64,000 bases of DNA from Sulfuricaulis limicola (GTDB lineage: Bacteria; Pseudomonadota; Gammaproteobacteria; Acidiferrobacterales; Sulfurifustaceae), in assembly GCF_002355735.1 (NCBI RefSeq), contig NZ_AP014879.1, forward strand, positions 1,612,001 through 1,676,000, written 5' to 3'. Below are positions 11,129-63,591 of this stretch, piece after piece. Within the stretch, counting starts at the first letter, position 1; every line of letters starts with the position of its first letter. Position numbers and translations under genes: made by a program. The notes beneath the pieces were generated by a model. The model was not told the DNA's origin. It saw only the letters and a program-made list of their open reading frames with translations, and searched no databases.

Positions 11129-12307
11129 TCAGCATGTCGCATCAAGCCCTGCGAACAGATCACAGTATTTCTGTACGGCAGATTCCAGTGAGTGATGCTC
11201 ATAGGCATAGCGACGGGCATTGCCGCCCAACTTTTCACATTGCGCCGGATCGGCATGAAGTTCGCGGATATGACGAACCAGGTTGTCGAATGTGCCCGAA
11301 ACCCGCCCGAGATCGTGGCGTTCGATCACGCCATCAGGATCGACCATCAAGCTGATCACCGGTGTCCGGTACTGCCAGGATTGCAGAAATGTATTCGGAA
11401 ATCCCTCGCATTTTGACGTGCTGATGAACAGCCGGGCCCGCTTGTAATGATCCGCAATCTCGGAGAATGGCACCGTTCCGAGATATTCCAGATTGGGCAG
11501 CTCGTCCAGCTGATTACGGATGAACGAGTCACCCTTTTGTGACGGGCCGAACGCCATGATCATCCGAAACCGGACATGCGGCAGCGCCCGCGCCAGCTCC
11601 GGCACAAGATGGGCCTGTTTGTCTTCGTTGTTATTGCCTACCCACAGGACATAGTCATCCTTGCTGATGTCGTTGTCCTCTTCCAGGGTCAACACATTCC
11701 GGATAACCAAAACCTCCTTGCCGAACTTGTCCCGGAATCCTGTGCACTGACTTTCGGTCTGTGCCACGACAAAGTCGGTCATGCCGATTCCCGTCCGATA
11801 CAACCACCAGCCTGGCGCGCCTTGTCGTTGCCGGATGCGATTTTCATCAAGGTCGGAATCCTTCTGTCCAATGAAAATCAGCTTCGCTCCATGCGATCGG
11901 CAATACAGGCCCAGCAGAGAAAGTAAATGAGGCGGAACCTTGATGAGATAGAAGTCTGCGTGGATTTTGCGGAGAAGGCGGAAAAGTCTCCACCAGTCTG
12001 ACAGGATATATAACTTGCTTCCGCCCATATGACGGAATGTCGTCCTGTGTGCCGTGACGTCACCAAACTTTACGCTTTCTGGTTGTCCATAGTCATCAAC
12101 GACAAAATGCACATCGAACCCGAGGCTTGACAGCGCTCGCCCTATGGTAATCAGCTGGGTTTCAGCGCCGCCACTCCATCCCCCTCCGGCAAACGGGTCC
12201 AACAGGGGATAAGCAGATGGACTGATAAAACAGACACGTTTGCCTTGCAAGCATGATGGAATCTTAACCAAGCGTCTTGTCTCCCCTCTCAAAGCAACTA
12301 CCGACAA
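11129..12307 (-). CDS. Family 4 (GT-B) glycosyltransferase
   Basis: A 392-residue GT4 enzyme. Recognisable parts are KRVCFISPSAYPLLDPFAGG with GGWSGGAETQLITIGRALS (the GT4 acceptor-side glycine loop), YVLWVGNNNEDKQAHLVPEL, LEYLGTVPFSEIADHYKRAR, and the donor segment STSKCEGFPNTFLQSWQYRT before PVISLMVDPDGVIE. In the last segment the usual Glu of the second E-x7-E position is replaced by Gln/Trp (LQSWQY), a variation seen in some GT4 members. The gene is separated from the methyltransferase downstream by about 250 bases with no clear feature, and from asnB upstream by about 90 bases. Confidence 0.85.
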   Translation of the reverse strand: MSVVALRGETRRLVKIPSCLQGKRVCFISPSAYPLLDPFAGGGWSGGAETQLITIGRALSSLGFDVHFVVDDYGQPESVKFGDVTAHRTTFRHMGGSKLYILSDWWRLFRLLRKIHADFYLIKVPPHLLSLLGLYCRSHGAKLIFIGQKDSDLDENRIRQRQGAPGWWLYRTGIGMTDFVVAQTESQCTGFRDKFGKEVLVIRNVLTLEEDNDISKDDYVLWVGNNNEDKQAHLVPELARALPHVRFRMIMAFGPSQKGDSFIRNQLDELPNLEYLGTVPFSEIADHYKRARLFISTSKCEGFPNTFLQSWQYRTPVISLMVDPDGVIERHDLGRVSGTFDNLVRHIRELHADPAQCEKLGGNARRYAYEHHSLESAVQKYCDLFAGLDATC

Positions 12308-51957: not shown

Positions 51958-54648
51958 ATGTCCGGCGCCAGGGAAACCCTTTTCAACAGCCGCGAATTCG
52001 AACAGTCGCTGGCCGCCACCGACAAGCCCCTCCCCCTGTTTCGCGCCGCGTTGCAGGCCGGTCGCGAAAATCTCAAGCAACGATTTTTTCAACATAGCGG
52101 CGCCACGCTGCTGGTGACGGCGCACGCCAGACTGATCGACCAGTTGATCGTGCGCGCCTGGAAGCGGCACTTGTCCCTGCTGCCCCCCGGCTTTCGCATC
52201 GCCCTGGTAGCCGTGGGCGGTTACGGGCGAGGTGAACTGCATCCCGCCTCCGATATCGATCTCATGGTGTTGCTGGAAAAGGACAAGCCGGCCAAAACAC
52301 GAGCCTTCATTGAGGCCCTGATCCGTTTTTTCTGGGACATGGGACTGGAAGTCGGCCACAGCGTGCGCACCCTGAAAGACTGCGTGCGCGAGGCGAAAGA
52401 CGACATCACTGTGGCGACCAACCTCATGGAGTCGCGCCTGCTCGATGGTGATGAGAAGCTGTTCCATAAAATGCGCGTGCTCACGCATGCCTCGAAAATA
52501 TGGCCGAGCCGGAAATTCTTCGCCGCCAAGCACCAGGAGCAGATACAGCGGCATCACCATTTCCACGACACCGCCTACAACCTGGAACCGAACATCAAGG
52601 ACGGTCCGGGCGGGCTGCGCGACATCCACATGATCTCGTGGGTGGCGCAACGGCATTTCGACACAACATCCCTGCATGACCTGGTCAAGCCCGGCTTCCT
52701 GAACGAAGAGGAATACCGCACGCTGATCCGGGGGCGGAACTTCCTGTGGCACGTGCGCGCCGGACTGCATTACCTCGCCGACCGGCGCGAAGACCGGCTG
52801 CTCTTCGATCACCAGCGCGAGCTGGCGAAACACTTCGGCTACAAGGACCGTCCCGGTTTCCTCGCCGTCGAGCAGTTCATGAAGCGCTACTACCGCACCG
52901 TCAAGGAACTGTCTCTGCTCAATGAAATCCTGTTGCAACACTTCGAGGAGGTCATCCTTGCTCGCGGGCGCATCAAAATCCACCCCATCAACCGCCGCTT
53001 TCAGTCCCATCACGGTTTCCTGGAAGTGACGCACCCGCGGGTGTTCGAGCGCGCGTCGTTTGCGCTGCTGGAAATGTTCCTGCTCATGCAGCAACACCCC
53101 GAACTCAAGGGCGTGCGCGCCGGCACCATCCGCCTGGTGCGCGCCAACCTGCATCGCATCGACAACAAATTCCGCAAGGACCTCGCCTGCCGCAGCCTGT
53201 TCATGGAGATCATGCGCCAGCCGCGCGGCATCACGCACGAACTGCGGCGCATGAACGCCTACGGCGTGCTCGGCGCCTACCTGCCGGCCTTCGGGCGCAT
53301 CGTCGGGCAGATGCAGCATGACCTGTTCCATGTCTACACCGTCGACGCGCACTCGCTCATGGTGGTGCGCAACCTGCGCCGCTTCACGTTGCCGGAATTC
53401 CGCGATGAATTTCCGCTCGCCAGCGAGCTGATCCAGAAACTGGTCAAGCCCGAACGCCTGTATCTCGGCGGGCTGTTTCACGACATCGCCAAGGGACGCG
53501 GCGGCGACCACTCCGAGCTCGGTGAAAAAGAGGCCCAGGCCTTCTGCCGTCAGCACAACCTGAGCGAATACGACACCCGCTTCGTCTGCTGGCTGGTGCG
53601 CTACCACTTGCTGATGTCGGCCACCGCGCAGCGCGAGGATATTTCCGATCCCGACGTCGTGCTGCGCTTCGCCCAGCGGGTCGGCGATCAGGAGCATCTC
53701 GACAATCTCTATCTGCTGACCGTGGCCGACATGCGCGGCACCAGTCCGGCCGTGTGGAATACCTGGAAAGGCCGCTTGCTGTCGCAGCTCCATAGCGCCA
53801 CCTCGCGCTTGTTGCTGCGCGGCATCGCCCAGCCGATCGATCTGGAAGAGCATGTCGCCGATCTGCGCCGGTCGGTACTGGACCGGCTGCGGCCGGCCGG
53901 GATTCCGGAGCCGGCCGTCATGCGCTTCTGGCAGGACCTCGATGCGGAATACTTCCTGCCCTACGACGTGGAAAGTCTCGCCTGGCACGCCCAGGCTCTC
54001 GCCGCGGCCCCTGCCACCGATCTGCCGATCGTGGCCACACGCTACACGCCGGAACTTGGCGGCAGCGAATTCCTGATTTACACCCCGGACCGCGACGATC
54101 TGTTCGCAATCATGACCGCGGGCTTCGACCGCCTGAACCTGTCCATCATGGATGCCCGCATACATACGCTGCGCAACGGTTTCGCGCTCGACACCTTCGT
54201 GGCGCTGGACCATTCCGGCCAGCCGGTGAGCGATGCGCGCGCCCTGGAGCAGTTGCAAAAAACCATGCGCGACCAGTTGTTGCGCCCGCAACCGGGACGG
54301 GAAATCCAGACAACGGGCCTGCAACGCCAGCTCAAGCACTTCCCCATTGAAACGCGTGTAACCTTCAGTCCGTCACCGAAGGGACAGCTCACCATCATGG
54401 AAGTCACGGCGCAGGACCGGCCGGGGCTGCTCTACCAGGTGGCGCTCGCGCTCAAGCACTGCCGGGTGAACCTGGTGGCCGCCAAGGTGGCCACCTACGG
54501 CGAGCGCGCCGAGGATATTTTTTTCGTCAACGCCCGCGACCGCCAGCCGCTGACGGACAAAACCCAGCTCGCCTGTCTCGAGGCCGAGATCATCCGGCGC
54601 CTCACACCCGCTTCGGAGAAATCCGAGACGCGCACAGTCGAGTTTTAA
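51958..54648 (+). CDS. glnD: Bifunctional [protein-PII] uridylyltransferase/uridylyl-removing enzyme
   Basis: 896 residues from the ATG at 51958, 5 bases after map; longer in-frame starts read through map. The nucleotidyltransferase motif is VAVGGYGRGELHPASDIDLM with Asp99 and Asp101. The HD hydrolase domain starts near residue 500 (YLGGLFHDIAKGRGGDHSEL). Two ACT domains follow, about 700-780 (TDLPIVATRYTPELGGSEFL) and 810-890 (VTFSPSPKGQLTIMEVTAQD, RPGLLYQVALALKHCRVNLV). It senses glutamine and modifies PII to control nitrogen metabolism. Its stop codon is 2 bases before the large structured repeat at 54651-54905. Confidence 0.97.
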   Translation: MSGARETLFNSREFEQSLAATDKPLPLFRAALQAGRENLKQRFFQHSGATLLVTAHARLIDQLIVRAWKRHLSLLPPGFRIALVAVGGYGRGELHPASDIDLMVLLEKDKPAKTRAFIEALIRFFWDMGLEVGHSVRTLKDCVREAKDDITVATNLMESRLLDGDEKLFHKMRVLTHASKIWPSRKFFAAKHQEQIQRHHHFHDTAYNLEPNIKDGPGGLRDIHMISWVAQRHFDTTSLHDLVKPGFLNEEEYRTLIRGRNFLWHVRAGLHYLADRREDRLLFDHQRELAKHFGYKDRPGFLAVEQFMKRYYRTVKELSLLNEILLQHFEEVILARGRIKIHPINRRFQSHHGFLEVTHPRVFERASFALLEMFLLMQQHPELKGVRAGTIRLVRANLHRIDNKFRKDLACRSLFMEIMRQPRGITHELRRMNAYGVLGAYLPAFGRIVGQMQHDLFHVYTVDAHSLMVVRNLRRFTLPEFRDEFPLASELIQKLVKPERLYLGGLFHDIAKGRGGDHSELGEKEAQAFCRQHNLSEYDTRFVCWLVRYHLLMSATAQREDISDPDVVLRFAQRVGDQEHLDNLYLLTVADMRGTSPAVWNTWKGRLLSQLHSATSRLLLRGIAQPIDLEEHVADLRRSVLDRLRPAGIPEPAVMRFWQDLDAEYFLPYDVESLAWHAQALAAAPATDLPIVATRYTPELGGSEFLIYTPDRDDLFAIMTAGFDRLNLSIMDARIHTLRNGFALDTFVALDHSGQPVSDARALEQLQKTMRDQLLRPQPGREIQTTGLQRQLKHFPIETRVTFSPSPKGQLTIMEVTAQDRPGLLYQVALALKHCRVNLVAAKVATYGERAEDIFFVNARDRQPLTDKTQLACLEAEIIRRLTPASEKSETRTVEF

Positions 54649-54650
54649 TA

Positions 54651-54905
54651 GACAGGATTAAGCAGGGCGAGCCGGAAACAGACGAAGACACTTAACGTGT
54701 CTTCGTCCCGGCGAGCGCCCCGCCACGGATGGCGGGGCCGAGTCTCCCGAAGCCGCCGTGGCCGCGCCAGGGAGGGCATGCCTTCCCTGGCGTCGCACCC
54801 AGGCTTCGATAAACCCCAGCCCGCACATCCCTGTGCGGGCGCTCAGCGGCGCTGATGCACGTTAAGTGCATCAGCGAAAACTCCGCTTCGCCCTGTTAAT
54901 CCTGT
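54651..54905. repeat. Large multi-hairpin structured repeat, copy A
   Basis: A 255-base element bounded by a terminal inverted repeat: ACAGGATTAAGCAGGGCGA at the left and TCGCCCTGTTAATCCTGT at the right pair along 18 bases with one bulge. Inside are five hairpins: 54681-54707 (11-bp stem, loop TTAAC), 54717-54738 (9 bp), 54765-54792 (9 bp), 54819-54840 (9 bp, loop TCCC) and 54850-54876 (11 bp, loop GTTAA). GAGCGCCC (54713-54720) can also pair with GGGCGCTC (54837-54844). The element nearly fills the gap between the convergent glnD and livF genes. A second copy in the same orientation is at 63331-63591. No coding frame is conserved between the copies. Confidence 0.92.
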
Positions 54906-54912
54906 GAATTGG

Positions 54913-55623
54913 TCAGCCACCGAGATAGCACTCCTGCACCTTCGTATCCCTGAGCAGGGCCTGCGCCGAATCGGCGAGCACGATGTTTCCGCTTTCCATG
55001 ACGTAACCGCGGTGACTGACCTCGAGGGCGAGCCGGGCGTTCTGTTCCACCAGCAGCAGCGTCATGCCCTCTTCGGCAATCCGTTTGATGATCTCAAAAA
55101 TCTTTTGCACCAGCATCGGCGCCAGCCCCATGCTGGGTTCGTCGAGCAGCAGCAGGCGCGGGCGGCTCATCAGTGCGCGGCCGATGGCCAGCATCTGCTG
55201 TTCGCCGCCGGAAAGCGTGCCGGCCTGTTGCGTGCGCCGCTCGGCCAGGCGCGGGAAAAGATCGTAGAGACGGTCCATATCGGCGCGGATGGCGGCGTGG
55301 TCGCGGCGCGCGTAGGCGCCGATTTTCAGGTTCTCCTCCAGCGTCAGGCGCCCGAAGATTCCCCGTCCTTCCGGCACCAGCGAAATGCCGCGACGCACCA
55401 GTTCGTACGAAGGCCGGCCGGTGACGGAGGTGCCCTCGTACAGGATTTCGCCGCGGCTCGGCGGCAGCATGCCGCACAGGGATTTGAGCGTGGTGGTCTT
55501 GCCTGCGCCGTTGGCGCCAATCAGGCATACGAGCTCGCCCTCTTTCACCGTCAGGTCGATGCCCTTGACGGCGCGAATGCCGCCGTAGGACACCTCCAGT
55601 CCGCGCGTTTCCAGAAAACTCAT
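54913..55623 (-). CDS. livF: Branched-chain amino-acid-type ABC transporter, ATP-binding protein LivF
   Basis: A 236-residue ABC ATPase. Walker A is LIGANGAGKTTTLKSL, the signature motif is GTLSGGEQQMLAIGRALMSR, Walker B is LLLLDEPSMGLAPMLVQ and the His loop is LLVEQNARLALEVS. The short GLAP motif is typical for LivF. It pairs with LivG under the LivHM permease in the inner membrane. The start overlaps the livG stop as ATGA. It is the last gene of the operon; the structured repeat copy A lies just beyond. Confidence 0.95.
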   Translation of the reverse strand: MSFLETRGLEVSYGGIRAVKGIDLTVKEGELVCLIGANGAGKTTTLKSLCGMLPPSRGEILYEGTSVTGRPSYELVRRGISLVPEGRGIFGRLTLEENLKIGAYARRDHAAIRADMDRLYDLFPRLAERRTQQAGTLSGGEQQMLAIGRALMSRPRLLLLDEPSMGLAPMLVQKIFEIIKRIAEEGMTLLLVEQNARLALEVSHRGYVMESGNIVLADSAQALLRDTKVQECYLGG

Positions 55624-63330: not shown

Positions 63331-63591
63331 GACAGGATTAAGCAGGGCGAGCCGGAAACAGACGAAGACACTTAACGTGTCTTCGTCCCGGCGAGCGCCC
63401 CGCCAAGGATGGCGGGGCCGAGTGTATCGAAGCCTCCGTAGTTGCGCCAAGGACGGCAGGCATGCCTTCCCTGGCGCCGCGACAAGGGCTTCGATACGCC
63501 CCGGCCCGCACATCCCTGTGCGGGCGCTCAGCGGCGCCGATGCCCGTTAAGGGCATCGGCGACTACCCCGCTTCGCCCTGTAAATCCTGTC
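63331..63591. repeat. Large multi-hairpin structured repeat, copy B
   Basis: A 261-base element in the same orientation as copy A. The first ~93 bases differ from copy A at one position only, in a hairpin loop. Hairpins are at 63361-63387 (loop TTAAC), 63397-63418, an imperfect one at about 63444-63477, 63504-63525 and 63535-63561 (loop GTTAA). GTATCGAAGCC (63424-63434) pairs with GGCTTCGATAC (63487-63497) and encloses the third hairpin; this pairing is partly lost in copy A. The last hairpin has different stem bases from copy A yet stays fully paired. It fills the gap between the divergent nnr and queG genes. Confidence 0.92.

Follow-up and report, generated by a model that had tools for sequence, protein, structure and literature searches.

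The window analysed here, a stretch of 64,000 nucleotides of the Sulfuricaulis limicola chromosome, contains two intergenic elements of 255 and 261 bp, copy A between glnD-like and livF-like genes and copy B beside an nnrD-like gene (Table 1). Both elements, described in the initial annotation as same-orientation copies with terminal inverted repeats of about 18 bases, five hairpins and a compensated last stem, were confirmed in the window sequence. The terminal repeats pair as GACAGGATTAAGCAGGGCGA with TTCGCCCTGTTAATCCTGT, with an offset of one base. Over the first 93 aligned bases the two copies differ at a single loop base, and their last stem reads CGCTGATGCAC/GTGCATCAGCG in copy A and CGCCGATGCCC/GGGCATCGGCG in copy B, with perfect pairing in both. 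All five hairpins are present in copy A; copy B possesses the same four outer hairpins around a longer central stem.

What had been missed is that each of the two elements is an inverted dimer of one unit of ~100–135 bp. A covariance model of the unit matches each copy twice, once per strand, and the two units, which read inwards from both ends, are arranged tail to tail inside ACAGGATTAA ends; in copy A their tails meet at GGCATGCC. Each copy is a quasi-palindrome over its whole length. The computed RNA folding energies are −169 and −184 kcal/mol for copies A and B (z = −15.1 and −15.2, respectively), and none of 200 shuffled sequences folded as well.

Table 1. Features of the two inverted dimers in the window. 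Gene names were assigned by reading of the translations; bit scores refer to R1, the covariance model of the unit core.
Feature	Position	Strand	Remarks
Copy A, inverted dimer	54652..54905	+	between converging glnD-like (+) and livF-like (-) genes
Copy A, left unit core	54663..54754	+	R1, 84.1 bits
Copy A, left H1 hairpin	54681..54707	+	GACGAAGACAC-TTAAC-GTGTCTTCGTC
Copy A, left H2 hairpin	54717..54738	+	
Copy A, central palindrome	54765..54792	.	tail-to-tail junction of the units
Copy A, right unit core	54802..54895	-	R1, 108.3 bits
Copy A, right H2 hairpin	54819..54840	-	
Copy A, right H1 hairpin	54850..54876	-	compensated stem changes
Copy B, inverted dimer	63332..63590	+	between diverging nnrD-like gene (-) and open frame from 63617 (+)
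Copy B, left unit core	63343..63434	+	R1, 87.9 bits
Copy B, right unit core	63487..63580	-	R1, 104.4 bits
Copy B, right H1 hairpin	63535..63561	-	compensated stem changes

The unit begins with the head G(T/C)GAG(G/C)CGG, followed by a bulged hairpin (H1) closed by GGCGG/CCGCC, the motif GA(A/G)CG, a second hairpin (H2) and a third one (GCC-AGGGA-GGC) near a loosely defined tail. In an alignment of 12 units, the ends of which were picked by hand, the common elements are GGG(C/T)GA, a (G/C)CGG stem arm, a short bulge, H1, the partner CCG(G/C), GA(A/G)CG and H2, and the stem sequence of H1 varies freely. The apex of H1 is of the CCnGTGG type in 77 of 173 hairpin-checked cores, TTAACG in 52, TTCnGTGAA in seven and of other kinds in 37. 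The 12-sequence alignment, which preceded the model and from which the scored structure was itself drawn, displayed 91.4% pairing and a covariation score of 0.470 versus 0.181. When 121 cores (114 distinct rows) were fitted to the structure model, 96.1% of the cells paired, both sides changed in 22 of the 25 pairs and the covariation score was 0.682, compared with 0.184 for shuffled and at most 0.101 for slid alignments; none of 500 shuffles reached the observed score. A covariance analysis of further copies, the check proposed along with the initial annotation, thus reveals strong covariation in the stems, and the maintenance of pairing is real. Since covariation runs through the family, the compensatory changes between copies A and B are part of a large pattern.

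The pairing is also unusually exact. In the ten stem pairs of H1, G-U accounts for 1.0% of the cells and mismatches for 1.5%, whereas the tRNAs encoded in these loci (n = 72) contain 5.2% G-U in their acceptor and T stems (p = 5e-8, calculated over cells that are not independent); the corresponding values for H2 are 2.4% G-U and 8.1% mismatches. The rarity of G-U suits a DNA palindrome better than RNA alone. Recognition of the palindrome at the DNA level would be expected to leave Watson-Crick pairing that is almost exact, and so would the recopying of one arm from its partner. In palindromes so close to perfect, compensatory changes do not necessarily imply selection on an RNA.

These observations bear on the possibility that the repeat is a structured non-coding RNA of a regulatory, processing or terminator-like kind, which is maintained by selection on the RNA and owes its copy number to its usefulness. 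The covariation, strong in three helices, and the stable folding of the copies would agree with such a role, and copies adjacent to tRNA genes are, judging from their positions, probably included in tRNA precursor transcripts. Nevertheless, the deficit of G-U relative to tRNA stems speaks against it, as does the fact that neighbours and strands differ among copies, A being located between converging and B between diverging genes. A simple scan of the copy A region (54500–55050) detected no terminator-like or promoter-like site, and a related insert in the uvrC gene of another genome (G011) is devoid of H1. We consider this explanation unlikely: of the initial proposal that structure is under selection in a possible RNA family, the upkeep of pairing is borne out, but an RNA family is not established, given the near absence of G-U and the uvrC insert without H1.

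The genome of S. limicola (2.86 Mb, one contig) contains seven dimers, six retrieved as full-query matches (one without the central hairpin) and one split by extra sequence. R1 yielded 47 matches in this genome, 46 of them at E ≤1e-4, and the seven dimers account for 14 of these 46 strong core matches. At E 0.01, 23 of 40 relatives matched (18 of 19 within the family, 5 of 21 elsewhere in the order), and in a sample of the class 43 of 369 genomes, S. limicola included, contained matches at 1e-4. A search with the H1 pattern matched at least 120 stretches of named genomes, the matches listed including Sulfuricaulis and Muproteobacteria MAGs, Halomonas, Lysobacteraceae and Rhodobacteraceae; some of the matches are false (e.g. 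in actinobacteria), being plain coding sequence without a hairpin. The pattern was also found in 22 viral contigs. In L236 (positions 11300–11420) and similar viral contigs H1 is located in Rhodobacteraceae-like prophage or transfer-agent clusters, where it directly follows a gene for a baseplate-hub-like protein (Pfam PF09931, PF09356) and precedes an NlpC/P60 gene; by reading, it sits inside an apparent second copy of the 3' end of the baseplate-hub-like gene.

The flanks of copy A could be located in seven of eight same-genus relatives and those of copy B in six. A model search of these 13 homologous spacers found the core of copy A in none of the seven and that of copy B in none of the six. 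The spacers are short and free of inserts in G001 and G006 (site A) and in G001, G003 and G006 (site B), and those of the remaining relatives are occupied by other sequence, such as GCAAAGACGCAAAG or CCCTCTCCC palindromes. Both window copies are lineage-specific. In G002 (L314), the glnD-livF spacer, where copy A resides in the window genome, contains a Y1-transposase-like gene together with GTGCGCAT palindromes.

None of the seven window-type dimers is flanked by a flush direct duplication (repeats of 2–10 bases were sought), and for this reason the insertion rule derives from single units rather than from the window copies. A regular expression identified 205 distinct cores in the fetched loci. 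Thirty of them are associated with a direct repeat (≥12 bases) whose upstream copy ends no more than 6 bases from the head, compared with 3 of 1021 controls obtained by re-pairing upstream and downstream sides between loci; a single array contributes six of the 30, and the other 175 cores have no such repeat at the head. The head is directly preceded by GG in 147 of 173 hairpin-checked cores, a count that excludes the 32 matches failing the hairpin check, which were retained in the duplication count. Flush repeats of at least 14 bases characterise 26 distinct elements, and in 17 of these the tail-side copy lies inside a tRNA gene called by ARAGORN. The junction follows nt 19 (the GG of the D-loop) in eight cases, is at nt 61/62 on the opposite strand in seven and at nt 24 in one; in the last case, a tRNA-Ser of 91 bases, it is at nt 76, as far from the 3' end as nt 61/62. 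Outside arrays, the repeat covers the end of the tRNA and mostly 0–12 further bases (by reading). The remaining nine flush cases include, by reading, array units (L067, L257 three times, L260 and L278), for which the measured repeat overstates the target duplication because it includes part of the neighbouring unit. Three others, all in G011, occur at apparent starts of protein genes (L073, rng-like, and L110, response-regulator-like, both named by reading, and L111). As these cases show, single units elsewhere have entered their targets immediately behind a GG; the target is directly duplicated, and the gene is complete in the copy on the tail side. Selection among insertions probably explains why a working gene remains.

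In S. limicola itself, units are found on both sides of one tRNA-Arg gene, as well as at tRNA-Thr, tRNA-Ser, a second tRNA-Arg and, beyond an RtT-like stretch, tRNA-Glu. A script placed 4 of the 46 cores within 150 bases of a tRNA gene, the second tRNA-Arg-side unit and the tRNA-Glu unit being more distant than that. An array of seven units precedes a complete tRNA gene in G059 (L272, positions 1392–2729), each unit carrying a piece of the 5' part of that gene, and two inverted units follow the latter.

Units also occur in protein genes. The UvrC protein of S. limicola contains ~36 extra residues (456–491) encoded by an in-frame unit, an insert absent from all eight same-genus relatives and from E. 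coli; in the alignment, UvrC of G009 continues across the region without a gap. The insert in uvrC of G011 mentioned above is related. A unit after an rpmJ-like gene provides the stop codon of the latter (by reading), and the open reading frames of this ribosomal-operon neighbourhood recur in the loci of four genomes, including that of S. limicola.

According to the initial annotation, no described family has this layout. The claim holds for Rfam: at gathering score the only match in the window is a t44 RNA (RF00127; 50941–51048, minus strand, 51.9 bits) in the upstream part of an rpsB-like gene, an ordinary occurrence, and neither copy is matched. RtT (RF00391) sits similarly at tRNA ends, albeit with a different sequence. 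Several weaker hits were discarded. Matches to copy A at relaxed E-values were far below gathering scores, a sub-threshold sX4 match at L036 corresponded mostly to tRNA-Ser itself, and a sub-threshold RtT match (32.5 bits) at L132, positions 2569–2702, is due to a distinct RtT-like stretch, with a tRNA gene on one side and a lengthy repeat of that tRNA's end on the other. The RtT model did not match copy A up to E 10 or any part of the S. limicola genome at E 0.01. Beside tRNA-Glu in the latter genome (L011), an RtT-like stretch ending in GAGTAATCC and a duplicated tRNA-Glu end are immediately followed by a unit; this stretch, too, gave no RtT match at E 0.1. No description of the unit was found in open-access PMC papers.

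RtT, or rttR, of the E. coli tyrT operon resembles the unit in being a structured repeat beside tRNA genes with a duplicated tRNA 3' end: by reading, the structured repeat at tyrT is followed by AATCCTTCCCCCACCACCA, the end of tRNA-Tyr from the T arm onwards. Among 17 RtT matches in relatives, one of which exceeds the gathering score, 16 are near a tRNA gene and 13 repeat at least 12 bases of their own 3' end upstream; such positions are favoured by the model, which itself includes the end of a tRNA. The duplicated tRNA 3' end is shared by single units and is missing from the window dimers, and the two repeats differ in sequence and fold. We propose that RtT is a sister of the unit in behaviour and not the family to which the unit belongs.

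Rickettsia palindromic elements, mentioned in PMC3733652, resemble the unit in layout, being palindromic repeats located in frame in genes that stay open, as is the unit in uvrC; however, many units reside in gene spacers and tRNA genes. MITEs (PMC10969869) are non-coding elements with terminal inverted repeats and a mover presumed to act in trans. The window dimers are likewise non-coding and have terminal inverted repeats, and a trans-acting mover would be presumed here as well, but they display no short target duplication of fixed length (0/7), whereas single units lack such terminal inverted repeats and are associated with duplications that are long and variable.

Three further explanations concern the way in which the copies could have spread. 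In SINE-like retroposition, a reverse transcriptase supplied in trans would copy RNA of the unit into DNA at a nick in the target. A fixed head, a loose tail and duplications of variable length are the traces expected of target-primed reverse transcription, yet the association with RVT_1 domains, present in 21 of 43 carriers and 116 of 326 other genomes, was not significant (p = 0.096) and was discarded. RVT_1 was found in seven of the 16 carriers with at least four listed copies and was missing from the other nine, and the single-contig genome with the seven-unit tRNA array (G059) gave no RVT_1 match, although insertions may have preceded a loss of the enzyme. We give retroposition little credence.

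REP and BIME repeats are short palindromes of the GTAG and CGTC types (PMC3733652); they often form inverted pairs, and they occupy gene spacers or, in some cases, lie in frame within genes. The unit shares the palindromic nature, the inverted pairing and the spacer or in-frame positions; it is, however, larger (~100–135 bp with three hairpins, compared with tagged palindromes of 20–40 bp), possesses the head G(T/C)GAG instead of the GTAG/CGTC tag, produces direct duplications on insertion and shows no link to RAYT. Mobilisation by a RAYT (Y1) transposase is suggested by the resemblance of the inverted hairpin pairs to BIMEs, by the Y1-like gene in spacer A of G002 and by the occurrence of Y1_Tnp in 34 of 43 carriers and 207 of 326 other genomes (counts by reading of lists). 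Nonetheless, the core is present at just one of 30 Y1_Tnp loci (flanks of 1.5 kb where the contig allows), none of the three Y1 genes of S. limicola has a listed core within 1.5 kb, and nine of the 43 carriers are without a Y1_Tnp match; several of these nine genomes are incomplete, and two of the nine, the congeneric G051 and G203, have 11 and 8 listed copies, respectively. Furthermore, the unit starts with GTGAG or GCGAG, not with GTAG. HUH transposition is not known to make a target duplication. RAYT was thus not supported as the mover, and we regard this origin as very unlikely. Nor was a recurrent transposase-like open reading frame recognised in the 14 largest clusters (226 loci, 1124 open reading frames), which by reading are prophage-like, transporter, signalling and ribosomal-operon genes.

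The dimers have peculiarities of their own. In eight pattern-matched dimers of three genomes the mean identity is 98.9% for left arms and 92.9% for right arms, and the left arm (54663–54740 and 63343–63420 in the window) is almost invariant across copies and the three genomes, whereas the right arm varies. The flanks of the seven dimers in S. limicola are inverted, in several of them with the form AATT(G/C)ACAGGATT, and units are also nested in other palindromes, of the CATTCCCGCGAAAGCGGG, CCGCCAAGACGCCAAG and CCCTCTCCC types; inverted flanks of at least 12 bases were observed for 19 of 205 cores and 10 of 1021 controls. The near-identity of the left arms, as gene conversion could give, the existence of tandem arrays and the absence of direct duplications around dimers would be compatible with ancient sequences that were dispersed solely through recombination and gene conversion, but the same junction recurs in different tRNA genes of different genomes and homologous spacers are empty, making such a history without transposition hardly credible.

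Taken as a whole, the features of the window are best explained as copies of a non-autonomous structured mobile repeat, and we consider this explanation likely to be correct. The initial annotation had left the choice between an RNA family and a non-autonomous mobile element; the copy number, the lineage-specific presence and the flush duplications of single units elsewhere favour the second option, and the first is the weaker one. Insertion by primed copying would fit the constant head, the loosely defined tail, the shared GG and the variability of the duplication. A target DNA end terminating in GG would serve as the primer, the element would be copied from the fixed head onwards, and the nascent strand would then rejoin the target slightly upstream, so that a piece of the target becomes duplicated. 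The inverted flanks are not yet accounted for by this mechanism. Copies may be mostly neutral to the host and would survive where no gene is destroyed, that is, in spacers, in tRNA genes of which a complete copy is restored, and in frame in uvrC.

A bolder proposal, which we put forward tentatively and think rather unlikely, is that the repeat belongs to a new class of gene-less mobile DNA, with RtT as a sister family. In this class, hairpin repeats would be added to GG ends by primed copying, mainly at two sites within tRNA genes (behind nt 19 and, on the opposite strand, at nt 61/62), and the accompanying duplication of the tRNA end would spare the tRNA of the host. If true, such a class, RtT included, would span much of the Pseudomonadota. 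What was an orphan repeat becomes a testable kind of mobile element, with a GG and two favoured positions in tRNA genes, a tRNA-sparing duplication and no known mover, and, if RtT is of the same kind, the duplicated tRNA-Tyr ends after E. coli tyrT would gain an explanation.
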